DNA of 64,000 nucleotides from Chloroflexota bacterium (GCA_020349245.1 CP070764.1:3401057-3465056), one strand, 5' to 3'; counted from the first letter of the stretch, positions 2,899 to 51,398 are shown. Notes: generated by a model from the letters alone, not told the origin. Program-made: numbers and translations.

Positions 2899-3570
2899 CT
2901 AATCTACCAATCCTTGGCGAATTGCGAGGACAATTGCTTCAGCGCGATTGGAAACCCCCAGCTTGGAAAGGATATTGCTGACATGCGTGCGGACAGTGGT
3001 AACGCTGATGGTCAGGCGTTCACCGATTTGCGGATTGTTCAACCCTTCGACCATCAAGGCCAAGACTTCGTGCTCACGGGGGGTCAGGTTATTCCCTAAT
3101 GCAGGAGATTGTTCTGATGCCGCTTGAATTAAGACTTGGGCCGCTTCTGGAGCTAACGTCGGCTGCCCAATATAGGCAGCACGGATGGCATCGGCAAGTT
3201 GTTCCATCGTGACGTCTTTAAGCAAGTACCCGATAGCCCCTGCTTGGAGTGCTTCCTGAACTAACTGCCTATCCTGGAAGCTCGTCAGTGCGATGATTTT
3301 AATCTGAGGCCAACGTTCGAGCAAAGTTCGGGTGGCCTGGATACCATCCATCCTGGGCATAACCAGGTCCATCAGGATCACATCCGGCTTGACTCTTTCG
3401 CATATCAGCAGAGCTTTCTCGCCATCCCGGGCCTCACCGACAAGTTCCAAATCGGGATTGACTAGAATAAAGGTAGACAGACCGGTCCGCACCATGCTGT
3501 GATCATCAACAATCATCACCCGGATCGGTTCCTGCTGATCATAATCGGTAGCCAAATTATTCATCTTCAT
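2899..3570 (-). CDS. NarL/LuxR-family response regulator
   Basis: The partner of the propeller kinase encoded just upstream. From the ATG at 3570 (after GGGGAAGTG) it has 223 residues and overlaps the kinase stop by 14 bases, which implies coupled translation. The receiver domain has the acidic pair in IVDDHSMVRTG, the phospho-acceptor D68 in VILMDLVMP, a switch Thr/Ser in IALTSF and K in LLKDV. The output is a LuxR four-helix domain, LTPREHEVLALMVEGLNNPQ to TVRTHVSNILSKLGVSNRAE. It acts as a DNA-binding activator or repressor; targets are not visible here. Confidence 0.93.
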   Translation of the reverse strand: MKMNNLATDYDQQEPIRVMIVDDHSMVRTGLSTFILVNPDLELVGEARDGEKALLICERVKPDVILMDLVMPRMDGIQATRTLLERWPQIKIIALTSFQDRQLVQEALQAGAIGYLLKDVTMEQLADAIRAAYIGQPTLAPEAAQVLIQAASEQSPALGNNLTPREHEVLALMVEGLNNPQIGERLTISVTTVRTHVSNILSKLGVSNRAEAIVLAIRQGLVD

Positions 3571-6500
3571 CACTTCCCCGGGGTACTTGCCATATAACCC
3601 TGACCGATGTACCATCACCAGGTTCACTGCTGATGTCCAAATCTGCACCAATTACATTCGCTCTTTCAAGCATGATGTTCAGGCCATGGTGTTCCTGTGA
3701 AACCTCCTGCACATCGAAACCCTCCCCATCATCACGGATTGATAACTCAATTATATACTCGCATTCTTCCTCGTTGGGTGGGCTGGAAGCAAATTTCGTA
3801 CATCGCAGGCTTAATGAAGCGCTGCTTGCCTGGGCATGTTTCACCACATTATTCAATGCCTCTTGAGCGATACGATACAAGGCGATTTTTCCATCTACCG
3901 GCAGCTGGCAAATCTCGTCAATATGGAGATCAACAGGTATACCTTCTCGCCCAGAAGCGGCCTGGGCTAACTGGGTTAAAAGGTCCTGCAAGGATGCCTC
4001 CGCCAGGGCACCGGGACGTAGTTCCATGAGTAAGCCACGCATCTCGGCTAAAGCGCCACGATTCGATTGGCGCAATTTTTCAAGAAGTACTTGGGCCTGT
4101 TCTTGATCGGTTTGCCATACAGATGGTAGGGCTTCAGCGATCAGGCTGGCGGAAAACAGCATTTGAGAAACTGCATCATGCAAATCGCGAGCCAGGCGCT
4201 GCCGTTCTTCGATGGCAGCCAGCTCTTGCACCTGGCTGAATAGACGGGCGTTTTGAATCGCCAAACCTGCCCGCTGCGCCAGGGAGAGCAGGAGACGCCT
4301 TTCATCCTGGTCGAAAGTGTGTGGTCTGGTGAAATCAACGCTGAAAACACCGAAAACTACATCGCTGACCTGGATAGGCACCAGCATAAAAGCAAGAATT
4401 TCTGTCGGAATAGCTTTGTCCTTTTCAATCCGAGGATCAGTGAGAATGTTTTCTACAGCGAGTGGTATACCACTGCTCGCTACTGATTGGGCAAGCTCCT
4501 TTTTGAACCCAAGAGCGATTTCATCCTTCATCCAGGGAGATGGCCCATGCACAGCCCGGGTAACCAGCGTCCCCAGTGATTCATCCCAAAACATGAGCAA
4601 CCCCTGATCGGCTTTTAAGGTCTGGACGGCTGTATCGACCAGCACCTGGAGCAGTTGATCTAAATCTAGATGGCGGTACAGTTCCTGGTCAGCCTGGTAC
4701 AGAATCTCCAGTTCCCTGCGCCGTGTTTCAATCTCCTGTGTCCGATCTTCAACCTGAGCTTCCAGTTCCCTGCTGCGTTCTTGGATGACCTTCACTCGCT
4801 GACGATATATACCAACCCCAAATAAGACAAATGCTATTCCAGCCAGAATCCTAAATACCCAGGTATCCCAAATCGGGGCTTCGATGGTCAGGTAAACTGC
4901 TACACCAGCTTCATTCCAGATGCCATCACTGTTTGATCCTTTCACCCGGAAGACATAATTTCCTGGACCCAGACCAGCGTAATCCACATAACGTCGATTC
5001 CCCGCATAAACCCAGTCTTCATCAAGACCCTCCATCATATAGGCATATTGATTCTTTTCAGGAAGAATGTAATCCAGCGCGGCGAACTCGAAAGAGAGAT
5101 AATTCTCGCGGTTTGGCACAACGATCTGTTCATCAGGGAAAAGCTCTGATCGAACTGGTTTGTTAAAAATTCTCAAGCCGGTAATCATGATCGGGGGTGG
5201 GGAGAGATTCTCCAAGATTCGATTTGGATCCATCACATAAATTCCATGCAGACTGTCGAAATACATCTCCCCGGTCATACTGCGGTGACAGGGTTCATGG
5301 AGAAAAGCGCCTGAATTGAGAGCCCCTAATCCATCGGAAAGGTCAAAATTATTAAAATTTTCGGAATCGGGGGTAAATCTTGAAAGACCTTTGGGCGTAG
5401 TCAGCCATAGAGAACCCGTGTCATCTACCAAGATACAGCCAACTACATCGTCGATCAACCCATCTCCAGTAGTGTATTGGGTAAATGTGCGCTTTGTCCG
5501 ATCGTAGCGGTTCAATCCCCCTCCGCCTGTACCAATCCAGAGAATGTCGCGGTTCTGTGGATCTTCAAGGATGGATAACACCTGGTCATGGCTCAGGGTA
5601 TTCGGATCGCTGGGATTATGCCGCAGGTGAGTGAACTTATCTTGCTTCGCATCCCAAATATTGATCCCGCCACTAAAAGTACCCACCCAGGGCACACCAT
5701 ATTGGTCGATAAAAATATCCAGGATGATATTATGGCTTAAACTTCCAAAACGATTCCAATGATCGTAGTCCTGCCAGTAATGTGGATAAAAAACCATTTC
5801 TGTATTTTCAGGTTCAAAGCGGTAAAGTCCATTAAATGTACCAACCCAGAGATTTCCCATGAGATCTTCGGTGATCACCGAAATATTGCTGGGCAGTTTT
5901 CGGAAGTGAATAAAACCCCCATTCCGGGGGTCAAATTGCTCCAGCCAACCATCTGAATTCCCGAGCCATAATCTTCCAGAAGCGTCCTCGAAAATTGCAG
6001 TGACTATATCAGACTTCAAGCTGCTCGGATCTGCGGGATCATGCTTGAAAATCTTTACTTCACCTGTTTCAAAGTTAACCCGATTTAGCCCGCCGAAATA
6101 GGTACCGATCCACAGGATGCCATCCTGGTCTTCTAAAGTGGTGGAGATCTTGTCAACGCTCATGCCGAATAATATCTCTTTTGATGAGACCTCCGGGGAT
6201 GAGGGTACCAGTTCCGGACGGCTCTGGTAGAGAGAGAAAATATCGCCCCGGCGATTGGATTTACTGATCCCGTTGGTTGTCCCCACCCAGAGTACACCTG
6301 AGCGATCTTCAAACAGGCTGATAACAGTGTTATCACTCAAGCTGTGCATATCGGATGGGTCATGGTGATAATGCGTGAAGTGGTCATGAACCGGATCGTA
6401 TTGGTCCAAGCCATTAATTGTCCCAACCCATAGGATTCCCTGGTTATCTTCAAGAAGGGAAGTCACAAAATCATTACTTATACTATGTGGATCGTTTGGG

Positions 6501-7399
6501 CTAAAGCGATAATGGATGAATGTACCGGATGTGCGATCAAACCGGTTGAGGCCTCCGTCGAGTGTACCTACCCAAATAGAACCTTTCCGATCTTCGAGAA
6601 TCACGGTGACCACACCCTCGCTGAGGCTGGAGGCATCGGTGGGGTCAGGTTCGAAATGATCGATTAAACCCGTTTGACGATTGAATCGATCCAATCCCTG
6701 GCTTGTACCAATCCATAAATCACCCTGACTGTCTTCAAATAGTGCATTAGCACTATTAAGGGATACCACTTCTACCCCATCATACTCAGTCGCGTAGGAT
6801 TTAAGTTCATAAACAAGTTGGTGAGTATCCCGATCGTAAGCGTATAAACCGTGCCAGAATGAAATCCATACCAATCCCTGAGAATCTTCATAGACTACAT
6901 CCGCTTGCCCGCCACGCTCATCAATAAAAGTGAAAGTTTCTGCTTGGCGATCGAAGAAATCCACACCCCCAGCGCCTGCCACCCAAAAGCCCCCTTCTTG
7001 GTCCACCAGAAGATCGGTGATGTATGAGAAGTGGAGGGAATCGGGATCACCTTGGACTGAACGGTATACGGTGAATTCATGACCATCAAATTTATTTAAC
7101 CCCTGATCGGTACCAAACCACAGAAAGCCATATTGATCTTGAACGATGCTGCGAATAAAAGGGAAGGAGAGACCATCCGCGGTCGTGATATGCTCAAAGC
7201 GGATGACCTCTGCTCCTTCCTGGTGATTTGTGGAGGGAAAATCGGAAGCTGCTAGGTCGAGATCGGTTTCCCGGGATAAATCTCGATCTATGGATCCAGC
7301 AGATTGCACGCTGATTGGAATAATTAGACCTGCTGCGGTCATCAAAATGATCAGCACGGAAGCAAGGTTGTTGGGTGAAGAAAATCTTTTCCAGTTCAC
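3557..7399 (-). CDS. Hybrid propeller-sensor histidine kinase (Reg_prop/Y_Y_Y/GAF/HisKA_3)
   Basis: A 1280-residue membrane kinase. An N-terminal hydrophobic segment (about 13-33) exports a very long sensor built of repeated two-component propeller motifs (LWFGTDQGLNKFDG-like, roughly residues 70-740). A Y_Y_Y domain follows (about 765-840), then one membrane span (about 850-867), a coiled coil, and a cytoplasmic GAF domain (about 900-1055). The kinase part is of the HisKA_3 type, with phospho-acceptor H1074 in LARDLHDAVSQ, and an HATPase with N box EALNNVVKHA and G box DDGEGFD. This layout resembles the two-domain propeller sensors that bind extracellular glycans in Bacteroidota, but here the output is a separate NarL-type regulator. 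The ligand is unknown. It is the first gene of a two-gene operon. Confidence 0.93.
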   Translation of the reverse strand: MNWKRFSSPNNLASVLIILMTAAGLIIPISVQSAGSIDRDLSRETDLDLAASDFPSTNHQEGAEVIRFEHITTADGLSFPFIRSIVQDQYGFLWFGTDQGLNKFDGHEFTVYRSVQGDPDSLHFSYITDLLVDQEGGFWVAGAGGVDFFDRQAETFTFIDERGGQADVVYEDSQGLVWISFWHGLYAYDRDTHQLVYELKSYATEYDGVEVVSLNSANALFEDSQGDLWIGTSQGLDRFNRQTGLIDHFEPDPTDASSLSEGVVTVILEDRKGSIWVGTLDGGLNRFDRTSGTFIHYRFSPNDPHSISNDFVTSLLEDNQGILWVGTINGLDQYDPVHDHFTHYHHDPSDMHSLSDNTVISLFEDRSGVLWVGTTNGISKSNRRGDIFSLYQSRPELVPSSPEVSSKEILFGMSVDKISTTLEDQDGILWIGTYFGGLNRVNFETGEVKIFKHDPADPSSLKSDIVTAIFEDASGRLWLGNSDGWLEQFDPRNGGFIHFRKLPSNISVITEDLMGNLWVGTFNGLYRFEPENTEMVFYPHYWQDYDHWNRFGSLSHNIILDIFIDQYGVPWVGTFSGGINIWDAKQDKFTHLRHNPSDPNTLSHDQVLSILEDPQNRDILWIGTGGGGLNRYDRTKRTFTQYTTGDGLIDDVVGCILVDDTGSLWLTTPKGLSRFTPDSENFNNFDLSDGLGALNSGAFLHEPCHRSMTGEMYFDSLHGIYVMDPNRILENLSPPPIMITGLRIFNKPVRSELFPDEQIVVPNRENYLSFEFAALDYILPEKNQYAYMMEGLDEDWVYAGNRRYVDYAGLGPGNYVFRVKGSNSDGIWNEAGVAVYLTIEAPIWDTWVFRILAGIAFVLFGVGIYRQRVKVIQERSRELEAQVEDRTQEIETRRRELEILYQADQELYRHLDLDQLLQVLVDTAVQTLKADQGLLMFWDESLGTLVTRAVHGPSPWMKDEIALGFKKELAQSVASSGIPLAVENILTDPRIEKDKAIPTEILAFMLVPIQVSDVVFGVFSVDFTRPHTFDQDERRLLLSLAQRAGLAIQNARLFSQVQELAAIEERQRLARDLHDAVSQMLFSASLIAEALPSVWQTDQEQAQVLLEKLRQSNRGALAEMRGLLMELRPGALAEASLQDLLTQLAQAASGREGIPVDLHIDEICQLPVDGKIALYRIAQEALNNVVKHAQASSASLSLRCTKFASSPPNEEECEYIIELSIRDDGEGFDVQEVSQEHHGLNIMLERANVIGADLDISSEPGDGTSVRVIWQVPRGSDEDE

Positions 7400-8203
7400 G
7401 ATAATCTGGCTGTGAGGAGAACCTCCAATTATGCAGGAGCCGGCTTAAGAAGTTGTTATTCGGGTCTTACATCCTGAAAATTAACTTACTATCAGATACC
7501 TACATTCGCACCGAAAGTAGAAGAGATTTTCCGGTAGTAGACCGAAAATCCACATCAATCCACCTGGAGCTCGAATCGCGCACCTTCTGGCACTGCAGAA
7601 GTCACCCCAAATCCATTTTGCTTCCAAATTGAACGTAATCCCATCTATGCGTTCATTCTAGACCAATTTGCATCAAGGATAGCAGCAATCTCCAACCAGC
7701 ACAACCTTCACCAGGGGTGTTTGCATATCCTACAGGTATAGGATATGGCGCATGTACCGCTTGATTAATCAAATGGATAGAAGGACTCTGCAGACTCTCA
7801 TTTTGAAGGATTGGATACCCGTCCGATCTCCGCAGGCCGTAGTAAAGATCGCCCAGATTTTCACGGACACTCCCTTCTTCAGTCTCTTGTGAACCGCAAT
7901 CCAGCTCATATTAGGTTTACGGGGGTCGGATTGGAGAGGTTACCTTCAAAAAATTGCAAATTAGTTGCCAGTCAACCAGCAGGCAATCGTGACATTCGTT
8001 GATGATCAACCCTGTAATTTTCGATCACTTTGCAGCGCGTTTTCCCATAAACATAAACTAGCAGCTGTAAATGAAGATAAATTTTAAAAAAACAGCATAG
8101 TGTAAATCCCAATAAATCGGATGACTCTACCCGCTAGCAGCTGTAAGCATTGTCTCGCCTGAATAAAATACCAGGTATCCGGTTATGGTGTTTGATCTTC
8201 CAT
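7400..8203. other. 800-bp spacer upstream of the propeller kinase
   Basis: No convincing gene in either strand; a 63-codon plus frame at 7811 has no ribosome site and no family. It holds a pair of 12-base near-repeats at 7510-7541 and a 13-base exact direct repeat CTAGCAGCTGTAA (8058-8070 and 8134-8146) 76 bases apart. It probably contains the promoter of the kinase operon and the 3' end of the neighbouring one. Confidence 0.5.
7510..7541 (-). promoter_or_regulatory. Candidate regulator site: two direct repeats 20 bp apart
   Basis: ACCGAAAGTAGA (7510-7521) and TCCGGTAGTAGA (7530-7541) match at 9 of 12 positions and begin exactly 20 bases, about two helical turns, apart. They lie 110-140 bp upstream of the propeller kinase. 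NarL-family regulators often bind tandem half-sites like this, so autoregulation is possible. Weak evidence. Confidence 0.3.
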
Positions 8204-8881
8204 TCAGGGGTCGCGGCGAACAATGCCCTCTCGCCAGGCATAGACCGCCGCCTGGGTTCGGTCTGCCAAGTGAAGTTTTCCAAGGATATTGCTGACGTGA
8301 CCTTTTACTGTTTTTTCACTGATCACCAGCTGCACGGCAATATCGGCATTCGAAGATCCAGCCGCGATGAGGCGCAGGACTTCCATCTCTCGATTGCTGA
8401 GCTCGGTGAATGGGTTAGCGACAAAATTGCGGGAATTCTGAACTTCTTTGATTAGGCGAGCCGCAACCCGCGGGTTGAGTACCGCTTCCCCTTTCGCCGC
8501 CTTGCGGATCACATCTGCAAGCTCATCGGGACCAATATCCTTCAGCACGTAGGACAACGCCCCGGCGCGGATGGCTGGAAATATGTGCTCGTCTTCATGG
8601 TACGAGGTCAGCACGACAACCTGGGTGCGCGGGGTTGTGTTTCTCACCTGGCGGGTAGCTGCCACACCATCGACCTCCCCCGGCATCACCAGATCCATCA
8701 AGATCACATCCGGAATTTGTTCCGCGGCGAGTTCAACTGCTTGCATTCCAGATTCAGCTTCCCCCACCACGACAAGATCTTCTTGCGAGTCCAGAAATGC
8801 CCGCACACCTTGTCGTACAACCTGATGATCATCCACGAGTAAAATGGTAATTTTATCTTCCATGATCAGCTCGCTCATCAA
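8204..8881 (-). CDS. NarL/LuxR-family response regulator of the ABC-exporter operon
   Basis: Last gene of a five-gene operon. Receiver domain with LLVDDHQVVRQG, phospho-acceptor D63 in VILMDLVMP, and LKDI near its end. The LuxR output domain is LSNREMEVLRLIAAGSSNAD through TVKGHVSNILGKLHLADRTQ. The start is uncertain: ATG at 8881 gives 225 residues, and an ATG at 8863 (MEDKITILL) gives 219 and fits the family better. Either overlaps the kinase stop at 8853. The receiver and output domains resemble those of the regulator at 2899, but the sequence differs enough that crosstalk cannot be judged. Confidence 0.92.
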   Translation of the reverse strand: MMSELIMEDKITILLVDDHQVVRQGVRAFLDSQEDLVVVGEAESGMQAVELAAEQIPDVILMDLVMPGEVDGVAATRQVRNTTPRTQVVVLTSYHEDEHIFPAIRAGALSYVLKDIGPDELADVIRKAAKGEAVLNPRVAARLIKEVQNSRNFVANPFTELSNREMEVLRLIAAGSSNADIAVQLVISEKTVKGHVSNILGKLHLADRTQAAVYAWREGIVRRDP

Positions 8882-10328
8882 GTGGGCATCGTACAGTTAG
8901 TACGGTTCCCTGCCCCGGTCCGCTTTCAATAACGAAATTGCCGCCAACACTTTCGACACGCTCACGCATGCTGCGTAATCCCATGCCTCTATCCTCCGCA
9001 GCGTGAAGATCAAAACCTATGCCATTATCGGAAATTTTGAGAAACACTTCTTCTTCGTCCCAGTCCAATTGGATTTCAACCCGTGATGCTTCGCTATGCC
9101 GGGAAGTATTGGATAACGCCTCTTGTGTAACCCGGAACAGCACTTGTTCTAAACTTGGGGGAAGGCTACCTTCCCCGGCAGCCGAGAATGAGACCTCGAT
9201 TTTGCTTTGGCGACTCCAACCAGAGAAATATTCTTCAAGGGCTGAAATCAAGCCTCTATCGGAAAGACTGATTGGACGTAACTCCTGGATCAGAGCAGCC
9301 AGTTCAGATTGTGCCTGGTGAGAAAGCTGTTCAGCTTCTGCCAAATGCATCCGAGCGGTATTTATATCCTGAGAGAGCATAGTCCGGGCTGCCCCGATCT
9401 GCATTGTTGCAGCGAATACCTGTTGCTTGACGCTGTCGTGCAGATCTCGCGCCAACCGGTTGCGTTCCTCCAAGGTTGCCAAGTCTTGCTTGGTCTGCAA
9501 CAATTGCTGAAGCTGTTCGGCCATGCGATTCAGCTGCTGAGCAAGCTGGCTGAGCTCATCTCGTGAGCGATCCTTTATAAAAGCAGAGAAATCTCCCTCG
9601 CTCCAGGAATTTGCCGCAGTAGATATCCTTTCCAATCGCCTTGTTAATCCACGAGCCGTGAAAATACCGAACACAGCTCCAACCAGCCCAGCTGCCAGGG
9701 CGAAGATAATTACACTTACCCCGAGTAAGGAAAGCATTTGGGTTAATGAACCTGGCGGAGGATACGTGATAACCATCAAGACAATCCCGGTCAATTTACC
9801 GCCCCCATCAAAAACTGGGACAGCGGTTTGTAGATAACCGCCAGAGACATTGGTGATTTTGTCAGGTGCTTTCTGACCACCCTGGGCCGCCACCAGAAGG
9901 TTAATTACCTCTTGGTTTCCCGTAATGCTCTGGAAATCATACGAAGCGGGCACCCCTGCCACCTGTTCCAGGGTCTCATCCAGAACGATCAGAACCGCGT
10001 TTTGATCAAGATCACCAAGATGGAAGGATATCCTTGGATTTTCAGGGGAGGTAAAGGTAATGCCCTCAGCAAATGCTGCTTCCATCCAAGCTGTCAGTGA
10101 ACCGACATCTGGTTGTGGTTGCTGAAGAAAACTTGCCACTTGAGGGACAATAAATCCGTCTATCGCCGAGACCAAAAAGGCAGGCATGAGATTGGAATAA
10201 ATGAGCAGGTAACTGGCCCCCCCAATGATGGCGATCTCAATCACCAACCACGTTGCGACGGTGACCAGCATATAATTGAGGGTGAGCTTCCATCGCAAGC
10301 TCTGGAATGGTTTCATCACGCGGTCCAT
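8853..10328 (-). CDS. NarX-type sensor histidine kinase (HAMP, HisKA_3)
   Basis: A 491-residue membrane kinase. A first span at about residues 20-45 and a second at about 200-225 enclose a roughly 150-residue extracytoplasmic sensor that I do not recognise. A HAMP domain (RGLTRRLERISTAANSW...) and a coiled coil follow. The phospho-acceptor is H297 in LARDLHDSVKQQ, and the HATPase has EALSNTSRHSEA and the G box DNGIGFD. It is encoded between a lipoprotein and its regulator in one operon with an ABC-2 exporter. The regulator-exporter pairing suggests it senses the compound that the exporter removes, or membrane damage. Confidence 0.92.
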   Translation of the reverse strand: MDRVMKPFQSLRWKLTLNYMLVTVATWLVIEIAIIGGASYLLIYSNLMPAFLVSAIDGFIVPQVASFLQQPQPDVGSLTAWMEAAFAEGITFTSPENPRISFHLGDLDQNAVLIVLDETLEQVAGVPASYDFQSITGNQEVINLLVAAQGGQKAPDKITNVSGGYLQTAVPVFDGGGKLTGIVLMVITYPPPGSLTQMLSLLGVSVIIFALAAGLVGAVFGIFTARGLTRRLERISTAANSWSEGDFSAFIKDRSRDELSQLAQQLNRMAEQLQQLLQTKQDLATLEERNRLARDLHDSVKQQVFAATMQIGAARTMLSQDINTARMHLAEAEQLSHQAQSELAALIQELRPISLSDRGLISALEEYFSGWSRQSKIEVSFSAAGEGSLPPSLEQVLFRVTQEALSNTSRHSEASRVEIQLDWDEEEVFLKISDNGIGFDLHAAEDRGMGLRSMRERVESVGGNFVIESGPGQGTVLTVRCPLDERADHGR

Positions 10329-18127: not shown

Positions 18128-18934
18128 TCATCGCAGTAAAGTTGCATAATAAATGGCAGCCACAATGTGAATGAATGCTGCGACAAACAATGCCAACCCG
18201 ATCGGTACGTGCAATGTGTGCCAGAGTGCCATGAGCCTACGAGCCTGGGCAAGAGAGACTCGCTGCCGATTCAGAGTCCGGCGGCGCTTGAGCAGTTCCG
18301 TGAGGGCAGTGGCTTGGGCTCGTGTTCGGGTATCCATTTTCCGCTGCAAATTCCACATGCTTATCTGGTAGCCCAGATCTTCGAACAGGTTGCCGATTCT
18401 AAATGTCGAACCAGACACTGGAACTGAGACGTACCTTGAAAACTGTGCAGAGACTTCCGGCTTTTCCTTGATCCAACCAGCGATCTGCGTTTCCAGGATG
18501 GAAATCCGTTTGTGGAGCTCGCCAACTTCGATTTCCATGCCATCCGCACTGCGGGGGATAGCTGTATAGATATAACGACCGATAAATCCACTGATCACAA
18601 CCACACCTGTCATCAGCATGACGATACCTGCCAGACCATTGAATTTCCATGAGGAGTGCAGCAAAACCATAAAAGGTCCAACCAAACCGGTAACAATGTG
18701 GAATTGCAGCCAGGATGAGGTTCGCCCCCAACGTGCGCTGCGGCTTCTTTTGCGCAACGTGTAAAGTGTTTCAGTCATCAACATCAGGAAAAATCCTATA
18801 ATGCCCAGTGTATGACCGAAAAAGTCACTGGCTGCGGGAATCCCGCCAAGCAAAATCACTGCCCCCAGGTAGACGAGGGAGATGATAATGATTGCAACGA
18901 ATGCTATCCATAATTCACGCGTGCTTTGGTACAC
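18128..18934 (-). CDS. Integral membrane protein, probable b-type cytochrome
   Basis: 268 residues with six predicted spans: two at the start, two in the middle (about 78-120) and one or two near the end (about 235-265), with a basic cytoplasmic loop between. Histidines sit inside or at the edge of spans: FFGHTLGIIG, FHIVTGLVGPFMVLLHSSW, LWHTLHVPIG and FIHIVAAIYY. This spacing recalls di-heme b cytochromes or ferric-reductase-like domains, but the family is not certain. It is the last gene of the cytochrome operon, and its start overlaps the upstream oxidoreductase by 20 bases. It is the obvious candidate to carry electrons through the membrane. Confidence 0.6.
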   Translation of the reverse strand: MYQSTRELWIAFVAIIIISLVYLGAVILLGGIPAASDFFGHTLGIIGFFLMLMTETLYTLRKRSRSARWGRTSSWLQFHIVTGLVGPFMVLLHSSWKFNGLAGIVMLMTGVVVISGFIGRYIYTAIPRSADGMEIEVGELHKRISILETQIAGWIKEKPEVSAQFSRYVSVPVSGSTFRIGNLFEDLGYQISMWNLQRKMDTRTRAQATALTELLKRRRTLNRQRVSLAQARRLMALWHTLHVPIGLALFVAAFIHIVAAIYYATLLR

Positions 18935-20249
18935 GAGATTTCACCCATTGAGTCCAAAAATCAGCAATTAGCTCCGCGATGGATGCTCCTGGTTGCAAGA
19001 GTGCTTCACGTATCGGAGTAACATCAACCTGGTGAGAAACCAGTGATTGCAGCGCGTGCGATAAAGTTTGGTCGCCCATGAGTATAGCGCCTAAAATTGA
19101 TTTCTCTCCCAACATTAATCGCAAGCGATTTACATCAAAATCCTGCTGAGCTGCGATTGAATCTGGCAGCTGCCGCCAGATTTCACTATCGCCACGGGCA
19201 ATACCGATTAAATCTTCGTCCTTTCCCTGACCCACTTTGCCGATAATGGTTGTGGTTAACCCAGCCAAGCGGGTCACATTGAAAGCAATTGGTTTTGAAT
19301 AGACTACCCGGCCACCCGCCATGTTCATACCCGCGATTGAACCCTGGTCGCGGGCTGGTCCCCAGAGTGAATCAATGATCGATCTCCCGGTAAAAGGGTC
19401 ATATACCTGAGCGACGTCACCAGCTGCGAAGATATCTTCCAAACCAGTACGCAGGTATTCATCCACCAGGATGCCTCGATCGACTTCCAAGCCGGACTCA
19501 TATGCAAGCTTTACTCGCGGCCGGATACCAATGGCGATGGCGACCATATTACAGCGAAGGATGCGGCCATCCTCGGTGCGGACACCGCTTACCGAGCCTT
19601 TGTGATCGAGAATATCAACCAGGCTGGTGTTATAGTGAATCTCCACGCCATGTTCCTTGAGCCGGTTTTCGATGATACGAGATTCGGTTTCGTCCAGGAC
19701 ATTATGCCAGTAGCGGTCGCGGCGCAGGAAATAATGCGTTTTGACTCCTTTCGCCACCAGACCTTCGACCAGTTCCAAGGCAGTGATCCCGCCTCCAACG
19801 ACAACTGCGACTCTTCCTCTTCGAACCAAAGATAAAATCCGCCGGGCATCATCCAGGTTGTCCAGCTTCACCACACCCTGCAGATCTTCACCCGGTAAAC
19901 CGCTGCGCGCAGCAGCTGCTCCAGTGGCGATCAGTAAGCGATCATAAGGCAGGTGGCTGCCATCATGCAGTTCAAGCATATGCTCTTCAGGCAGTATCCT
20001 ATCCACGCGGGCATGATAGCGGCGCAATCCTAATTCATCGAAATCGCGGTCGCTAAAAGGGAACAGCTGGGATTCGATAAGCTCACCGGTCAGGTAATAT
20101 GCAAGACCCGGCCGCGAGTAGTAACCATCTCGTTCTGCACACAGCAAGTAGATCTCCCCAGTGGCATCCTTTTTCCGGAGGGATTCCGCGGCGGCGATAC
20201 CCGCAGCACCACTCCCGATTATCACATATTGACGGATGCTACACCTCAC
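18915..20249 (-). CDS. FAD-dependent NAD(P)-linked oxidoreductase (NirB-N/rubredoxin-reductase type)
   Basis: About 444 residues if the GTG at 20249 is used; this start overlaps the ferredoxin stop by 11 bases and no ATG fits better. The FAD-binding GxGxxG is YVIIGSGAAGIAAAESLR. The second Rossmann motif for NAD(P) is VAVVVGGGITALELVEGLV, and ATG-type IATGAAAARSG and DIFAAGDVAQ complete the pattern of the pyridine nucleotide-disulphide reductase superfamily. There is no redox-active Cys pair, so it is not a thiol reductase. A partner is the ferredoxin encoded directly upstream. It probably takes electrons from NAD(P)H and feeds the cytochromes, or runs in reverse. About 110 C-terminal residues are beyond the usual core. 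Confidence 0.85.
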   Translation of the reverse strand: MRCSIRQYVIIGSGAAGIAAAESLRKKDATGEIYLLCAERDGYYSRPGLAYYLTGELIESQLFPFSDRDFDELGLRRYHARVDRILPEEHMLELHDGSHLPYDRLLIATGAAAARSGLPGEDLQGVVKLDNLDDARRILSLVRRGRVAVVVGGGITALELVEGLVAKGVKTHYFLRRDRYWHNVLDETESRIIENRLKEHGVEIHYNTSLVDILDHKGSVSGVRTEDGRILRCNMVAIAIGIRPRVKLAYESGLEVDRGILVDEYLRTGLEDIFAAGDVAQVYDPFTGRSIIDSLWGPARDQGSIAGMNMAGGRVVYSKPIAFNVTRLAGLTTTIIGKVGQGKDEDLIGIARGDSEIWRQLPDSIAAQQDFDVNRLRLMLGEKSILGAILMGDQTLSHALQSLVSHQVDVTPIREALLQPGASIAELIADFWTQWVKSRVPKHA

Positions 20250-20523
20250 TCTCGCGAATGAGTAGAGGATCAAACAGGTTGCTGCGCTCGAAACGCAGCA
20301 CACCGCGTGGGCAGCGAGCCACACACTCCCCGCAAGTCAGGCAGTAGCTTTCGCTGATCAATTTTCTCTCCCAGGCATAGCGGCGCACATCAATACCGAT
20401 CGGACAGGAATACGAGCAGATTCCGCACTGCACACAACGGGATGAGTCCGGTACAACGCAACCCTCCGCCCGAGTCTGGTGTTTGGAGACCTCACCATGC
20501 AAAAGACGTCTAAAATCAATCAT
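20239..20523 (-). CDS. Two-cluster [4Fe-4S] ferredoxin-like protein
   Basis: 94 residues from ATG 20523, which overlaps the end of the 16-heme cytochrome gene by eight bases; GGAGGAG lies upstream. Two complete cluster motifs are visible: CVQCGICSYSCPIG and CLTCGECVARCPRG, both C-x2-C-x2-C-x3-C-P. The rest is short and basic. It probably passes electrons between the FAD oxidoreductase and a membrane or periplasmic partner. No signal peptide is present, so it is cytoplasmic. Confidence 0.88.
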   Translation of the reverse strand: MIDFRRLLHGEVSKHQTRAEGCVVPDSSRCVQCGICSYSCPIGIDVRRYAWERKLISESYCLTCGECVARCPRGVLRFERSNLFDPLLIRESEV

Positions 20524-22141
20524 CGTGACCGCCTTCTCCTCCACCGCGGTGACATTCCACGCAGCGCCCCCCAATATTTGAGATACCCTCTTCATTATGT
20601 TTGCTGATCGTCTTATCCTTATCGTGACATGCGAAACAATTGTACTTTGATCCGCCCGCCGGGTGGCATGTACTGCATTTCCCATTTGCGCCACCATGGT
20701 TCATTGGAAACTTGTGATTGAAGGAGGCACCGCCCCAGGAGGATGTGTTATGACACTGCGAGCACTGCCCATCGAAATGATTGGCAGGTTTTCTGCCACT
20801 GTGACAGGCCTTGCAATCCGTTGCTCCTGCGGCACTGTGGTTGAATTTTGCGCCCGCCCAGGAGGAAGTACTATGACAGGCTGAGCATTGACCTCCAAAG
20901 TGGTTCGCTGGTTTTCGCCCGCTGTGGCAAGCCTTGCAGTCCGTGGCACCTACTGCCTGGTGATTAAAGCTTGCCTGGGCCCAATTGGAAGTATTATGGC
21001 AAGCCGAACATTGACCGCCATAATGATTGGCAGGTTGTTTTCCGTTATGGCAACTTTTGCAATCTGTTGCGCCAACTGCTTGATGGTTGAAATTCGCCTG
21101 AGCCCAATTTATCGTATTGTGACAGGCTGAACACTGGCCATCATAATGATTGGCAGGTTTGCTTGTTTGATGACAGGATTTGCAATTCCTGGTATCCACG
21201 GCTTCATGATTGAAATCCGCTTGTTGCCAATCTTCGGTATTATGGCAAGCTGAACACTGTCCGGCATAATGCCTTTCAGGTTCATCTCCTTGATGACAGG
21301 ATAAACAATCGGTAGTGTCAACCACGCTGTGTTCAAAGGAAATCTCCTCCCAGGAACCTGTAATATGACAGGCAGCGCAATCTTCAGCATAATGGGCTGC
21401 GGGTGCTATATCTCCATGACAATCCGCGCACAAATTCGGGGTCCCTTTATATTCACCATCCGAGTGGCAAGCAAAACAATCCAATTCAGCATGCTTTCCA
21501 TCTAAAATGAAGAATTCATGCATCGCGCCTGGACTGCCGGGCGGGAAGAGCACATCGTGTGGCGCTACTTGAGAGCTTTCTGGACTGTTTTCAGAACCTG
21601 GATCCCTTGCTGAATTAAGCGTATCATCGTGAAGATTTGAATTTAATGTAGCCTGGTCCCCTTCCGACAATCCAGCCAGTATTGCTGATAACGTGGCAAT
21701 TTTGGCTTGCAGGTTCTCAGCCGCCATCTCTTGCTCAGAAGAAAGGATAGAGCCCTTATCCAAAACAACTTTGATATTTAAAATCAACCTATCCAGCTGG
21801 GTGTACGAGGGAGATAAATCCCCTTCTGGCGCGTTTTTCACAGCATACAATACCCGGTCCAGCGCTTGATTTAAATATTCAGCTGCCAATGGTGCATGCT
21901 CACTCTCCCACAGGACAACCAGATCCTCAGTTCGTTGGAAAGCCAGTTCCAAATAATAGTTAACTAAATCTGACTGGCTGAAAATGATCCGGGCACGAGC
22001 CTGCTCAGAAAAATCCTGCAAGGGGAAAATGACGTTGCCAGGGCGAAAAGGTCTTGCGGCAGCCATCCCTACCTGGGCGCTTAACCCGACTATCCCGACC
22101 AGCAGGAATATTACCAAGGCAAGAATTATAAATCGGCGCAT
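20516..22141 (-). CDS. Exported 16-heme cytochrome c with 41-residue tandem repeats
   Basis: 541 residues; a signal or anchor segment (about 1-29) precedes a helical, heme-free region (30-220). Then come 16 CxxCH motifs, from CFACH at 222 to CVECH at 527. Five exact-length 41-residue units start with a CxxCH at 255, 296, 337, 378 and 419; each holds two hemes plus conserved F-N-H and A-N-H-[YF] histidines that can act as distal ligands. The C-terminal domain CSQCHNTSSWGG to the end matches the end of the neighbouring 18-heme protein. The protein is of the cytochrome c3/c7-like extended type and likely acts outside the cytoplasmic membrane as an electron wire. Heme maturation genes are not in the window. 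Confidence 0.92.
   Translation of the reverse strand: MRRFIILALVIFLLVGIVGLSAQVGMAAARPFRPGNVIFPLQDFSEQARARIIFSQSDLVNYYLELAFQRTEDLVVLWESEHAPLAAEYLNQALDRVLYAVKNAPEGDLSPSYTQLDRLILNIKVVLDKGSILSSEQEMAAENLQAKIATLSAILAGLSEGDQATLNSNLHDDTLNSARDPGSENSPESSQVAPHDVLFPPGSPGAMHEFFILDGKHAELDCFACHSDGEYKGTPNLCADCHGDIAPAAHYAEDCAACHITGSWEEISFEHSVVDTTDCLSCHQGDEPERHYAGQCSACHNTEDWQQADFNHEAVDTRNCKSCHQTSKPANHYDGQCSACHNTINWAQANFNHQAVGATDCKSCHNGKQPANHYGGQCSACHNTSNWAQASFNHQAVGATDCKACHSGRKPANHFGGQCSACHSTSSWAGAKFNHSAAGATDCKACHSGRKPANHFDGQCSQCHNTSSWGGASFNHKFPMNHGGANGKCSTCHPAGGSKYNCFACHDKDKTISKHNEEGISNIGGRCVECHRGGGEGGHDD
20765..21379 (-). repeat. Five in-frame 123-bp tandem repeats in the 16-heme cytochrome gene
   Basis: The units encode residues 255-459 with strict 41-codon period. 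Units two to five are the most alike, sharing long stretches such as FNHQAVGATDCK. This points to growth of the protein by unequal recombination, with two hemes gained per unit. A sixth, partial unit leads into the C-terminal domain. Confidence 0.88.
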
Positions 22142-22165
22142 GGCATTTCCTTTTCTCTATCCCAT

Positions 22166-23638
22166 CTATTCGTCATGATTTTTCGCTTCATGGACAAAGC
22201 CATCCAGATGGCATTCAGTACAATTGGCAAGCTCAGCGGTAGAGATATCTAAATCTTTGTGCTTATCTGCAATCTCATTCACCTCATGTTCATGGCAGCC
22301 ATAGCATGTGTACTCACTGTAAGTGGAGAGATGGCATACAGTGCATTCCACTTCCCCCTGGTCGCCATGATCAATTGGGAATTTGTGACTGACCAGCTGG
22401 GCTGGGTACCAGCTGGACGTGTTATGGCAGTATTCACATTTCAGACCGAAGAATCCAATGTGGACTTCAGGCTCCAGGTGGCAATCTTTGCACTCCGTTG
22501 AAGTGCCCAGGTAAACCTCATCCACGTGGCAAGCCTTGCATTCTATCTCAGCATGGCGACCTTCCAATGGGTAGACAATCTGGTGGTTGAAACCCTTCAT
22601 GCGGTCCGTACCATCATGGCAGGCCAAACAGTTATTCCCCAATTGAGATTGATGCTGAACAATAAAATCATTGTCATCTAGGGCATGGCAATCATTACAG
22701 GTAGCCTGCTCAAATGTCCGTACATCCTGCGCGTGGCAGGTCGTGCAAACGATCGAATCGCCAGAAAAATCCTGGGTGTGAAGTTCAAGGCTGAAACCCG
22801 AGTGATCAAAATGGTCAAAAGATTCACCCGCCAACAAAGCAGGTTTCCAAGAGCTTGTATCATGGCAGCTCCCACACTCAATCCCAAAAACGCCCAAATG
22901 GATCGCCGGTTCTGCATGGCAATCTACACAGTCAGCTGGCAGGTTCAAAAATTGACCCTGCTGGTGACAGCTTGCGCAGGTTTGATCAGCGTGGGAACCA
23001 TCCAGCGGAAAGCTCGAATTGGCATGATCAAAGCGGGTCAGGGTATCTAGGCCATCATGGCAGTTCATACAATCATTTCCGAAATCGGCCAGGTGAGTAG
23101 TCATAAACGCTAAATCCTGCCCTGCATGGCAGGTGGTACACAAATCGATTGACACCGAGAAACGATCATCAGACAGGTGGCACGCAGAACACTGCATGGG
23201 TGTCAGCGAATAATCGACCTGGTGCCAGATAAGGCTGAAAGACAACACTGAGTGGTCGAAATTCTCCAGGCTTCCTAAACGCAGGTCAAAATCCTTGCCG
23301 CGATGATCTGGATGGCATTGCGAGCATTTTTCCACCTGTTCAAACCTGGCGTGCAAACTATCCTCCATCAATAATTGAACTCCAATCTCGGTATGGCAAG
23401 CAAGGCACTGATTTGCTTGTATGCTGGTCAGGGGTTGGTGGCAGAGTGCACATTGCCCCTCAAAATCAGCATGTGAGTCAAAACCGCCAATATTTCCACC
23501 TGAAGAGCCGCTTGAGCTCAAAGCACCTGGACTGAAAGCCAGCCCACCCTGGCGCCAGAGAGTGAAACCCAGACCCGATAATAAAAACACCAATATCAAC
23601 AACCCGGGTAGGGAAATTACCGTGGATCTTCTCCTCAT
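22166..23638 (-). CDS. Exported 18-heme cytochrome c
   Basis: 490 residues from the ATG at 23638 (an in-frame ATG at 23668 would add ten). A hydrophobic segment (about 6-27) exports or anchors it, followed by a Ser/Gly-rich linker. 18 CxxCH motifs run from CALCH to CTECH. A four-heme block (CMNCH, CASCH, CVDCH, CGSCHDTSSW) is repeated as CLACH, CKACH, CKDCH, CEYCHNTSSW, which shows internal duplication. The last about 75 residues match the end of the 16-heme protein. First gene of the operon; 24 bases separate it from the next. Likely an extracytoplasmic electron carrier, with metal or another extracellular acceptor as a possible final partner. Confidence 0.92.
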   Translation of the reverse strand: MRRRSTVISLPGLLILVFLLSGLGFTLWRQGGLAFSPGALSSSGSSGGNIGGFDSHADFEGQCALCHQPLTSIQANQCLACHTEIGVQLLMEDSLHARFEQVEKCSQCHPDHRGKDFDLRLGSLENFDHSVLSFSLIWHQVDYSLTPMQCSACHLSDDRFSVSIDLCTTCHAGQDLAFMTTHLADFGNDCMNCHDGLDTLTRFDHANSSFPLDGSHADQTCASCHQQGQFLNLPADCVDCHAEPAIHLGVFGIECGSCHDTSSWKPALLAGESFDHFDHSGFSLELHTQDFSGDSIVCTTCHAQDVRTFEQATCNDCHALDDNDFIVQHQSQLGNNCLACHDGTDRMKGFNHQIVYPLEGRHAEIECKACHVDEVYLGTSTECKDCHLEPEVHIGFFGLKCEYCHNTSSWYPAQLVSHKFPIDHGDQGEVECTVCHLSTYSEYTCYGCHEHEVNEIADKHKDLDISTAELANCTECHLDGFVHEAKNHDE

Positions 23639-23728
23639 AAATATCCATGAACCTCGATGATTGCACACTCATCCAGGCAATCATCCAGATAATTAATGCC
23701 TTATTTGTTTAAGACGTAATAATCACAT

Positions 23729-23743
23729 TTTAATCGCGTTAAA
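23729..23743. promoter_or_regulatory. Short inverted repeat in the divergent cytochrome/DtxR spacer
   Basis: TTTAA-N5-TTAAA about 90 bp upstream of the cytochrome operon. It is AT-rich and short, so chance is possible; it is listed because the spacer must hold the cytochrome promoter. Confidence 0.2.
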
Positions 23744-23797
23744 TCTATAGCCTAATAGTCCTGCAAATCCTTTCAATCTTGCAAGGCGTGCAAAAGG

Positions 23798-23827
23798 ACA
23801 TTTGTCACTTGATTCTATGACAAATGT
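23798..23827. promoter_or_regulatory. 10-bp inverted repeat upstream of the DtxR gene
   Basis: ACATTTGTCA and its exact complement TGACAAATGT flank a ten-base spacer, about 30 bp before the DtxR start. Length and position suit an operator for this regulator, which could control both its own gene and the divergent cytochromes. It does not match the classic IdeR/DtxR consensus closely. Confidence 0.5.
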
Positions 23828-23859
23828 GAATAGCCCACCAGTCTACTCCATGATATATT

Positions 23860-24603
23860 ATGGCAAACCATAACTTTTCAATCGATAATTTTATGTCTAG
23901 CCATAACTCCCTGGGAATAAGCGAAAGCGAACAGATGTACTTGATCACTATTGCCCGCCTTCTTGAGAATGGGCAAACCGAACCAATTCCCCTATCCAGC
24001 ATAGCCCAGAAGATGTCTATCCTGCCGGTGTCCGTAAACCAAATGGTGCGCAAATTGGAAGGAGAGGGATTGTTGCACTACCTGCCTTATAAAGGTGTTG
24101 AGCTTACCATTCGAGGAAAGGAGGTTGCCTTTCGTACCCTGCGTAATCGGCGCTTATGGGAGGTTTTTCTGGTCAATCACCTGCAGGTTCCCTATGAAGA
24201 AGCAGATGCAATGGCTTGTGCAATGGAGCACATCACACCAGAGGATATCGCCCTGCGTTTGGCTGACTACCTCGATAATCCAGTTTCGAACCCGACCGGT
24301 CAGCTCATACCCATCTTGGAGGCTGAGGGATTTATGGTAAATCTGGTTCGATTGACGGAGGTCGAGGCAGGTAGGGAGGTGCATATCGTCAAGATTGAAG
24401 GCCAGCAAGCTGCGACAAGGTTTCTCAACGAGGAGGGATTGCACCCCGGTTCCTCAATCGTGCTGGAAGCAATCGGCGCCCAGGGGTCTTGCCTGGTAAA
24501 AAGTGAAGCAGGATATCTGGAATTATCAGCGAAATTGGCCAACTCAATATTTATTTCCCCATTGGACCATACCAATAATTCGCAATCAAAAAATAATCAC
24601 TGA
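23860..24603 (+). CDS. DtxR/MntR-family metal-dependent regulator with FeoA-like domain
   Basis: 247 residues. A winged helix-turn-helix (about 19-85: SESEQMYLITIARLLENGQT..., VSVNQMVRKLEGEGLLHYLP) is followed by the DtxR dimerisation/metal domain. Its conserved ligand region is visible in LWEVFLVNHLQVPYEEADAM and CAMEHITPEDIALRLADYL. A C-terminal SH3/FeoA-like domain covers about 165-230. Iron or manganese would be the co-repressor. No strong ribosome site marks 23860; ATG 23893 is a possible alternative. It faces away from the cytochrome operon and lies 62 bases before the FTR1 gene, which implies iron-linked control of both sides. Confidence 0.9.
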   Translation: MANHNFSIDNFMSSHNSLGISESEQMYLITIARLLENGQTEPIPLSSIAQKMSILPVSVNQMVRKLEGEGLLHYLPYKGVELTIRGKEVAFRTLRNRRLWEVFLVNHLQVPYEEADAMACAMEHITPEDIALRLADYLDNPVSNPTGQLIPILEAEGFMVNLVRLTEVEAGREVHIVKIEGQQAATRFLNEEGLHPGSSIVLEAIGAQGSCLVKSEAGYLELSAKLANSIFISPLDHTNNSQSKNNH

Positions 24604-24665
24604 TGAGGAAGGGATAATCTTTTTTTCACGACCTACTCTCTCACAAGAAAGGATAACCCGTTACC

Positions 24666-25493
24666 ATGTTCCCTAGTTTATTGCTGTCACTTCGTGAAGG
24701 CATAGAAGCCGCTCTGATAATCGGTATCATTATTGGTGCATTAACCAAGCTGCACCAGGAGGAGCTCAAACCTGTAGTTTGGCGCGGCGTTGCCATCGCT
24801 GTAGTTCTCAGCCTTGTTTTCGGATTCGGATTGAATTACATCGGCATGGAATTTGAAGGTCAATTCGAAGAGGTTTTTGAAGGGATAGCAATGCTGCTGG
24901 CAGCTGCAATCTTAACCTGGATGATTCTCTGGATGCAACGCCATGGAAGTCAGATGCAGCAAGAATTAGAAGCAAAAACCACTATGGCTACTAAGGATCG
25001 CAGCGGCTCGGCATTATTCGTGCTGGCTTTCCTGGCTGTTTTCCGCGAGGGAGTTGAATTAGCCATTTTCTTGCTCGCCATCCGGGCGGCATCGAATCCT
25101 TCTTCGGTTCTCATTGGCGCTGCCCTTGGATTGGGCAGTGCGATTTTTCTCGGATGGATGATATTTGCCTCCACCCGCAAGCTGAAACTGCGCCAATTTT
25201 TCCAAATCACCAATGTACTCTTATTATTTTTCGCCGCTGGTCTAGTTGCCTTGGGTGTGCATGAACTCAATGAGGCAGGCTGGATACCCCCCATTATCGA
25301 AAACGTATGGAACATGAACCACATTATCAGCGATACGTCGGAAGTCGGATTATTGCTCAAGGCTCTATTTGGTTATAATGGCAACCCTTCGCTTTCCGAG
25401 GTATTTGCATACCTGGGATACTTCCTGATCCTTGGTGCGATTATCCTTAAGAATCAAAGACGTCCAATGAACAGGAAAGCGATCACAGCGTAG
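24666..25493 (+). CDS. FTR1-family iron permease
   Basis: 275 residues with seven predicted spans. The two iron-binding REGxE motifs are present: LREGIEA at residues 10-14 in the first span and FREGVEL at 127-131 in the fourth. These glutamates move iron through the channel in FTR1/EfeU. The partner proteins EfeO and EfeB, or a multicopper oxidase, are not next to it. The gene is downstream of the DtxR regulator and probably in one transcript with it. Confidence 0.92.
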   Translation: MFPSLLLSLREGIEAALIIGIIIGALTKLHQEELKPVVWRGVAIAVVLSLVFGFGLNYIGMEFEGQFEEVFEGIAMLLAAAILTWMILWMQRHGSQMQQELEAKTTMATKDRSGSALFVLAFLAVFREGVELAIFLLAIRAASNPSSVLIGAALGLGSAIFLGWMIFASTRKLKLRQFFQITNVLLLFFAAGLVALGVHELNEAGWIPPIIENVWNMNHIISDTSEVGLLLKALFGYNGNPSLSEVFAYLGYFLILGAIILKNQRRPMNRKAITA

Positions 25494-49863: not shown

Positions 49864-50040
49864 AGTGAGACTCCTTTTTTAAGAACTATCAGAAACTAAG
49901 CTGAATTTATTTTGTCCCACACAGGATATGCCAATTATTCCGCTTACAATACCCCTTATACGTGCCAGTTAAGTGTCATTGGTGTGTCACTCACTCGTAT
50001 GGTCTGGTAATTTATCCGGTGATAGATTAAGATCTTGGCA

Positions 50041-51390
50041 ATGCAGAACCCATTTGCTGAACAAATCCAGGTATTCATCCAGCGTCGCAACCTTCCAATA
50101 GAGCAATTGGCGGGTTTATCTAATCTCTCCCGCAAAACCCTTTACCGCTGGGTGAAAGGTGAAGTTGCCCGCCCCCGCCATTGGTATGAAATTGTGGCAT
50201 TGGGGAAGGCGCTCCGTCTCAACTTGGATGAAATGAACCAATTGCTGTGGTTGACGAAAAATCCCAGTTTTGAGGAATTGAAAGAGATAGCCCGTTACGA
50301 ATACGAACTGGAATTGCTGGAGGAATTCTCATCTCTCGAGCCGGCAGCTGGATCGCACCCGCGACCTGCTACCCGGTTTAAATCGTGGACTGCTTTAGAA
50401 GCTCCATCGGGAGCGGTGTACCCGGAATCTCCCATTTACATTGAGCGGATTGCCGACAGCCAATTAGAACACCAGCTGACGGGTCAGGGAACTACCACAA
50501 CCATCCAGGCAGGCCGCCAAACCGGAAAAACCTCCCTCTTATTGCACGCTATTCACGCCACCCTTGGTAAGGAAAGAAGGGTTATCTACCTCGATTTTCA
50601 ATTGATGGATGAATCCAGCCGGGATGACCTGGCCAGCTTTCTGCAAATCTTATCTGAAGCCATCGCTGAACAGCTCGATTTGGAATTGGAAGTGGTGGAT
50701 GGATACTGGCAAGCCGCGCGCAACCCGGCGCAAACTTTCAACCGGTTCTTGCAACTCGAGGTTCTAAATGCGCTTGATCAAGAGATCTTACTGGCGATCG
50801 ATGAAGCCGATGCGCTCCTCGATGCCGGTTACAGAAAACACTTCTTTGCCCTGCTGCGGGCCTGGGATTCACGCCGGGCATTTGATGCAAGCTGGCGGAA
50901 ATTAAGCCTGGTCATGGTGATCTCAACTCACCCGTATCTGTTAATTGATGACGTGAACTTGTCCCCGTTTAACGTGGGATTGACGATATCACTCAAGGAT
51001 TTCACTGCGGAACAGGTTGAGGACCTGAATCAACGGCATGGAAGCCCGCTCAAACCAGAAGAAATCTCCACGCTCATGGCCATGGTAGGTGGGCATCCCT
51101 ACCTGGTTAGGCAGGCTTTCTACACCATGGTTAGTGAAGCTTTATCACTAGCAGAGCTGCTTTCCATAGCCGGTTCCCCTGATGGCCCTTTTGGGAAACA
51201 CCTGCTTTTTTACGAGCACAGCCTTAGGCGAAATCCCAGCCTGATGTCCGCATTTCAGCAGGTACTGCGGGGACAAGAGATACCCGATGAATCTCTTCTG
51301 GAAAGATTATCTGCGGTCGGGTTAATCCGGCAGGATGCGCAAAAGTGGAATGCACGCTGTGGATTATATGAACAATTCTTTTTACAGTAG
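50041..51390 (+). CDS. HTH plus AAA_35-type ATPase
   Basis: 449 residues from ATG 50041. The N-terminal HTH (about 5-60, EQLAGLSNLSRKTLYRWVKG) is of the XRE type. A linker leads to an AAA-like domain of the AAA_35 group: Walker A AGRQTGKTSLLLH near residue 160 and Walker B EILLAIDEADALLD near 255. Then come LVMVISTHPYLL and GGHPYLVRQAFYTM, typical late motifs of STAND-like NTPases. It has no membrane span. Ends eight bases before the next ATPase gene. Probably a signal ATPase that binds DNA. Confidence 0.88.
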   Translation: MQNPFAEQIQVFIQRRNLPIEQLAGLSNLSRKTLYRWVKGEVARPRHWYEIVALGKALRLNLDEMNQLLWLTKNPSFEELKEIARYEYELELLEEFSSLEPAAGSHPRPATRFKSWTALEAPSGAVYPESPIYIERIADSQLEHQLTGQGTTTTIQAGRQTGKTSLLLHAIHATLGKERRVIYLDFQLMDESSRDDLASFLQILSEAIAEQLDLELEVVDGYWQAARNPAQTFNRFLQLEVLNALDQEILLAIDEADALLDAGYRKHFFALLRAWDSRRAFDASWRKLSLVMVISTHPYLLIDDVNLSPFNVGLTISLKDFTAEQVEDLNQRHGSPLKPEEISTLMAMVGGHPYLVRQAFYTMVSEALSLAELLSIAGSPDGPFGKHLLFYEHSLRRNPSLMSAFQQVLRGQEIPDESLLERLSAVGLIRQDAQKWNARCGLYEQFFLQ

Positions 51391-51398
51391 GCGCTAAA

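Follow-up and report, generated by a model that had tools for sequence, protein, structure and literature searches.

The window, a 64,000-nt stretch of DNA from a Chloroflexota bacterium (GCA_020349245.1 CP070764.1:3401057-3465056), carries at 18128-25493 a real, conserved Chloroflexota electron-transfer gene set that is apparently undescribed and appears to give a known process, multiheme extracellular electron transfer, a new architecture. On balance, we consider it probable that this set is a cytoplasm-fed electron export module. As the preliminary description had outlined, five minus-strand genes encode cytochromes of 18 and 16 hemes, a two-cluster ferredoxin, a flavoprotein and a membrane protein, all found where it had placed them, and they diverge from genes for a DtxR-family regulator and an FTR1 permease, both of which are identified by Pfam and NCBIfam (Table 1). 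The two cytochromes hold 34 of the 35 CxxCH motifs found in the same reading frame across the 64 kb window.

The gene spacing fits a single operon, with a 24-base gap between cytB and cytA and overlaps of 8 bases between cytA and fdx, about 11 between fdx and fad, and 20 between fad and memb. The third of these figures uses a revised start, as the fad ORF as listed is ~25 residues longer N-terminally than its family and its true start is probably near 20249, which would give an 11-base overlap with fdx. Likewise, the likely start of cytB is an ATG near 23638, and the probable start of dtxR is ATG 23893. Elsewhere, the window encodes, at 3557-10328, a large sensor kinase (regulator propeller, Y_Y_Y and GAF domains) close to a HAMP histidine kinase. 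At 50035-54233, two AAA_35 proteins lie side by side, and PD40 propeller repeats are present in the second of them. Rfam gave nothing at gathering level, and a MIR6151 match (21.7 of 71 bits) was rejected as chance.

Table 1. Coordinates of the module genes, the divergent neighbours and the candidate operators in the window
Feature	Position	Strand	Supporting features
cytB, 18-heme c-type cytochrome	22166..23668	-	18 CxxCH; Cytochrome_C7, Cytochrom_c3_2, MtrC/MtrF domain II/IV matches
cytA, 16-heme c-type cytochrome with signal peptide	20516..22141	-	16 CxxCH, ~41-residue diheme repeat
fdx, 94-aa 2[4Fe-4S] ferredoxin	20239..20523	-	Fer4 matches; two CxxCxxCxxxC clusters
fad, FAD/NAD(P) oxidoreductase	18915..20324	-	Pyr_redox_2 (PF07992), E 3.7e-53
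memb, predicted five-helix diheme cytochrome b	18128..18934	-	H79, H93, H242, H256; weak PF01292
dtxR, DtxR/MntR-family regulator, divergent neighbour	23860..24603	+	Pfam Fe_dep_repress, Fe_dep_repr_C, FeoA
ftr1, FTR1/EfeU iron permease, 3' of dtxR	24666..25493	+	PF03239 5e-55; EfeU-like
Perfect inverted repeat ACATTTGTCA-N10-TGACAAATGT, candidate dtxR operator	23798..23827	.	Upstream of dtxR
Inverted repeat TTATGG-N4-CCATAA at dtxR promoter, candidate operator	23858..23873	.	Arms kept in sister species

Gene content is conserved while gene order varies

Searches with memb found it in 21 of 61 genomes of relatives, at 31 loci in GTDB genome contigs, and as 40 matches in 400 genomes of the phylum. 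All 31 GTDB loci are titled Anaerolineae, Anaerolineales, Anaerolineaceae, Anaerolinea, Levilinea or Chloroflexi/Chloroflexota. The locus set was made up of the 51 Chloroflexota loci fetched with a length of 5 kb or more, and a few of these are duplicates between collections (L046 and L090, for example). Within 9 kb of memb, a flavoprotein gene is present in 48 of these 51 loci, a ferredoxin gene in 44, and a gene for a large multiheme cytochrome (MHC) in 39, and the module genes always share one strand. Loci without the full set are mostly contig ends or members of a group that has no MHC. Gene order is more fluid: fdx-fad-memb-MHC is commonest, the studied window has MHC-MHC-fdx-fad-memb, and other arrangements include memb-MHC-fdx-fad-MHC and MHC-fdx-MHC-fad-memb.

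Because the content is kept while the order is shuffled, there is good evidence that the genes function jointly, and the recurrence of the same content at some 50 loci across many genomes makes their co-occurrence more than chance. When the neighbours in 44 loci were clustered, only fad, MHC, memb and fdx recurred widely, with a response regulator recurring in 8 loci. No fused memb/fad/fdx gene was present in the fetched loci. The module is also carried in the genome of the cultured species Levilinea saccharolytica (L060), known as a sugar fermenter. The synteny search that the preliminary description had proposed thus yields conserved gene content across Chloroflexota (51 loci) without a fixed order, and none was found of the three outcomes it had held to speak against a new module, namely loss of the order in every relative, a membrane protein whose predicted structure has no heme ligands, or a match to a known conduit.

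The membrane protein and its cytoplasmic partners

Six His residues are nearly invariant among 53 aligned memb sequences, and four His (H79, H93, H242 and H256) are kept in the distant homologues of large-genome relatives (L096, L097, L098, L101, L105, L106) and in those of L099 and L100. H79 and H93 form an H-x13-H pair in helix 3, as do H242 and H256 in helix 5. Paired H-x13-H helices are the established pattern of stacked bis-His b hemes across the membrane in diheme b cytochromes, and by this four-His ligand pattern memb is predicted to be a transmembrane diheme cytochrome b. Candidate heme ligands of the kind sought in the preliminary description are therefore present as two H-x13-H helices; its term "His-rich" was loose for a protein with 7 His in all, although four of them lie in these helices. 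A separate proposal, that H41/H239 mark MHC-linked homologues, was rejected because it fails for L099.

An excess of Lys and Arg lies on the N-terminal side in all 24 of the 24 members with five called helices. We therefore place the N-terminus in the cytoplasm together with a coiled-coil insert (residues ~130-225) that short relatives do not have, and this placement would have H79/H242 facing the cytoplasm and H93/H256 the exterior. AF2 models of memb have five membrane helices (pLDDT about 80). PF01292 (prokaryotic cytochrome b561/hydrogenase b subunit) was matched in 25 of 30 members with a best E of 2.1e-6, below its gathering cut-off of 30.1 bits (16.9 for memb of the window, 20.4 for L045); PF01794 (ferric reductase/NADPH oxidase) matched one of the 30, at E 0.2. 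Coiled coils dominated the fold search with the long form, and the short form was therefore modelled. Its top matches over more than 100 residues were a designed diheme bundle (8ccr, Z 8.4), cytochrome b561 (4o7g, Z 8.3, 130 residues) and superoxide oxidase (5oc0, Z 8.2, 132 residues); Z values of 8.2-8.4 are within noise for helical bundles, making this match to diheme b proteins suggestive, not significant. NOX5 is in the same list at Z 7.0. Foldseek with the short form returned nothing at E<=0.001, and a PDB sequence search with the memb profile gave no match.

Homologues of memb occur with fad and fdx and no nearby MHC (L096, L097, L101, L105), or with an MHC and no fad (L099, L100). Since it pairs with either side alone, memb looks like the hub between a cytoplasmic input and an output on the outside. 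The large-genome Chloroflexota relatives L096, L097, L101, L105 and L106 encode a 550-650 aa FAD protein, a ferredoxin and the diheme-b homologue, with no multiheme cytochrome nearby.

On the input side, none of the 31 fad members keeps the acidic residue of the NADH motif; its position holds another residue, followed by invariant R201 and R204. Changes of this kind occur in NADPH enzymes such as glutathione reductase, and the motif suggests NADPH rather than NADH as the donor. All eight cluster cysteines of fdx are invariant in 26 sequences. The nearest solved relative of fad is AorC (8c0z_E; E 6.8e-62 by profile, 4.5e-44 by single sequence), the flavoprotein of Aromatoleum aldehyde oxidoreductase, which exchanges electrons between an FeS chain and NAD (PMC10413684). 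The flavoprotein subunits of AorABC and PadH (PDB 8c0z, NF045765; PMC10413684) share with fad a fold family that links FeS clusters and NAD(P), but they belong to soluble catalytic enzymes. The Glu of their NADH motif is Leu-Arg in the module fad, which scores 190.5 bits against the NCBIfam PadH equivalog (NF045765), far below its cut-off of 475.

Multiheme cytochromes change length in whole heme units

The cytB protein consists of a 3-heme head, two 6-heme blocks and a cap, preceded by an N-terminal signal or anchor (TM 17-35), and its match to PF22113 (MtrC/MtrF-type domain; 43.7 bits over a cut-off of 30) is a domain resemblance only. Its heme count is nearly fixed, at 18 in eight of nine relatives and 12 in the ninth. 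In cytA, which contains a 123-base tandem repeat (20734-21036), CxxCH spacings alternate 17/24, and relatives with 26, 30 and 34 hemes, against 16 here, have grown by the diheme unit. The module cytochromes carry a signal or anchor segment. PDB sequence searches with cytA and cytB gave no match.

Across relatives, the cytochromes are modular, with conserved head spacings (15-17, 27-30, 45, 16, 23, 31) followed by triheme repeats (32-16-18) and then a cap. Among complete downstream-type cytochromes with a classifiable cap, 43 of 46 have a heme number that lies on the three-step ladder their cap predicts (15, 18, 21, 24, or 17, 20, 23, 29, 35 hemes, by cap), where chance predicts a third and the proteins are related, not independent. 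Heme number thus moves in whole units of three (two for cytA) while head and cap stay constant (loci L031-L109), and this triheme ladder is a natural length series for studying the evolution of heme-wire length. Triheme (c7-type) repeat cytochromes, of which the Geobacter GSU1996-type is one, are likewise wires of repeated triheme units (TIGR04257), but those of the module are joined to a conserved head and cap and encoded beside an FAD/ferredoxin/cytochrome b input, in Chloroflexota.

The genome from which the window comes (G000) encodes a Ccm-type cytochrome maturation cluster that would serve the module cytochromes. Its other redox clusters (L132, L133, L134) comprise an ACIII-like cluster, an octaheme cytochrome with FeS/NrfD-like partners plus a nonaheme cytochrome, and an NrfHA-like pair. 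A whole-genome CxxCH count was set aside, as the reversed-pattern control was not a fair match.

Proposed electron path, alternatives and known systems

In the path that we infer, electrons would enter from the cytoplasm, where NAD(P)H (by the motif, NADPH) and/or reduced ferredoxin would donate them to the flavoprotein, which is AorC/PadH-like, and to the 2[4Fe-4S] ferredoxin. Electrons would then pass to the inner b heme of memb (predicted ligands H79/H242), on to its outer b heme (predicted ligands H93/H256), and from there to the large multiheme cytochromes, which would sit outside the membrane as anchored or secreted proteins. These may act as a variable-length wire toward an acceptor past the cell wall, be it a mineral, humics or a partner cell. 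Overall, this would amount to a split NADPH-oxidase-like transmembrane path with a cytochrome wire as acceptor and quinone bypassed. More tentatively, the module could be a quinone-independent entry into extracellular electron transfer, in which menaquinone-less fermentative Chloroflexota dump or take up electrons through an NADPH/ferredoxin-fed, split-NOX-like diheme b protein and wires lengthened by triheme units. Where the preliminary description saw an undescribed respiratory or metal-reducing module, conservation and apparent novelty stand, while metal reduction, the direction of flow and delivery outside are parts that we infer, as are the donor and quinone independence.

Quinone independence bears on an alternative in which the diheme b protein oxidises menaquinol to feed the cytochromes, as CbcL or Mco does, or in which the flavoprotein and ferredoxin reduce menaquinone through it and the cytochromes are a branch. 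MenD was above cut-off in 7 of 24 module genomes, which would allow such a link, and not in the other 17; MqnA/D was found in none of the 24. Of the 13 order-level (f12) module genomes examined, each with a completeness of 96% or more, 10 showed neither menaquinone marker, the single-contig G169 among them, and neither was detected in the Levilinea genome. The same was true of G000, which nevertheless has COX1 and an ACIII-like cluster that should need quinone, so absence of the markers does not prove absence of quinone; in G000, either a pathway escapes the markers or it is missing from the assembly, which is 92.7% complete. The marker pattern in module genomes nonetheless favours a quinone-independent input, and a quinol oxidase would not need the conserved FAD protein and ferredoxin. 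The MHC-less family, which is FAD-ferredoxin-cytochrome b alone, suggests that this part can serve another acceptor, perhaps quinone, and ANME Mco offers a precedent for a cytochrome b adjoining an MHC (PMC9012536). We regard the quinone-linked scheme as unlikely.

A module running in the opposite direction, its wire taking electrons from a partner cell, Fe(II) or a cathode so that the cytochrome b, FeS and flavoprotein components reduce NADP+ or ferredoxin, is similarly improbable. It would require a low-potential outside donor, and Levilinea saccharolytica, a sugar fermenter that carries the module, needs electron sinks, not sources. Each step is reversible in principle, however; AorC-type flavoproteins reduce NAD+ from FeS chains (PMC10413684), and a Chloroflexota isolate gives both anodic and cathodic current (PMC5808234).

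The link to iron drawn in the preliminary description found no support, as dtxR and ftr1 were seen beside the module only here and in a congener (G004, L107), thus only within the genus, and clustering of the 44 loci does not place them with the recurring neighbours. The repeat at 23798-23827 is the only match in the genome with up to 3 mismatches and the sister species conserves it in part ahead of dtxR; there, the repeat at 23858-23873 keeps its arms and has a changed spacer. Both look like dtxR operators, abutting dtxR and not the cytochrome operon; in the congener, cytB lies about 700 bases from the two repeats upstream of dtxR. Iron-regulated assimilation was rejected as a general role on these grounds (non-recurring neighbours, palindromes that belong to dtxR). 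An assimilatory ferric reductase, controlled by DtxR and providing Fe(II) for the FTR1 permease encoded next door, is very improbable. The divergent dtxR-ftr1 pair in both species and the likeness of a transmembrane diheme plus FAD to ferric reductases would suit it, but the candidate operators are hundreds of bases away from cytB in G004 and 34 hemes would be an odd investment for assimilation.

Consistent with the earlier view that known conduits differ, no published description of the module was found in the literature searched, most subscription papers and all preprints falling outside that search. Mco, the methanophenazine:cytochrome c oxidoreductase of ANME archaea, likewise has a membrane cytochrome b gene adjoining a large MHC in cells without an outer membrane, a trait seen here as a cytochrome b encoded beside an MHC in 39 of 51 loci, but it has a proposed methanophenazine feed and a VhtC-type b subunit (PMC9012536), whereas the module has a flavoprotein and ferredoxin in its operon and a b protein below the PF01292 cut-off. 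Rnf-MmcA of Methanosarcina acetivorans (PMC6703419) also carries cytoplasmic ferredoxin electrons to an outside multiheme cytochrome, but Rnf is a many-subunit ion pump, whereas transfer across the membrane in the module would fall to one predicted diheme cytochrome b; no Rnf genes (RnfABCDGE) are among the recurring neighbours (44 loci). Nor is any porin-like family that could represent an Mtr/Pcc outer-membrane beta-barrel, and for the Anaerolineales genomes PMC7399161 reports porin-cytochrome complexes to be absent. The consulted portions of PMC7399161 and PMC3971608 report large MHCs of varying heme number in Anaerolineales and relatives from bioanodes and sediment, and describe no input module for them. 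Ardenticatena shows two-way electrode activity (PMC5808234), and Anaerolineaceae are present in Fe(III)-reducing enrichments (PMC10052568).

Large cytochromes, electrodes and Fe(III)-reducing enrichments had led to the suspicion of extracellular electron transfer in Chloroflexota, while the exit route from the cytoplasm was open. The four-part module offers a concrete, testable path that reaches a cultured species, Levilinea saccharolytica, with memb as a marker gene for searches. CymA, ImcH, CbcL and Mco are inner-membrane inputs that rely on quinol; unlike them, the module would be an inner-membrane input without that reliance.
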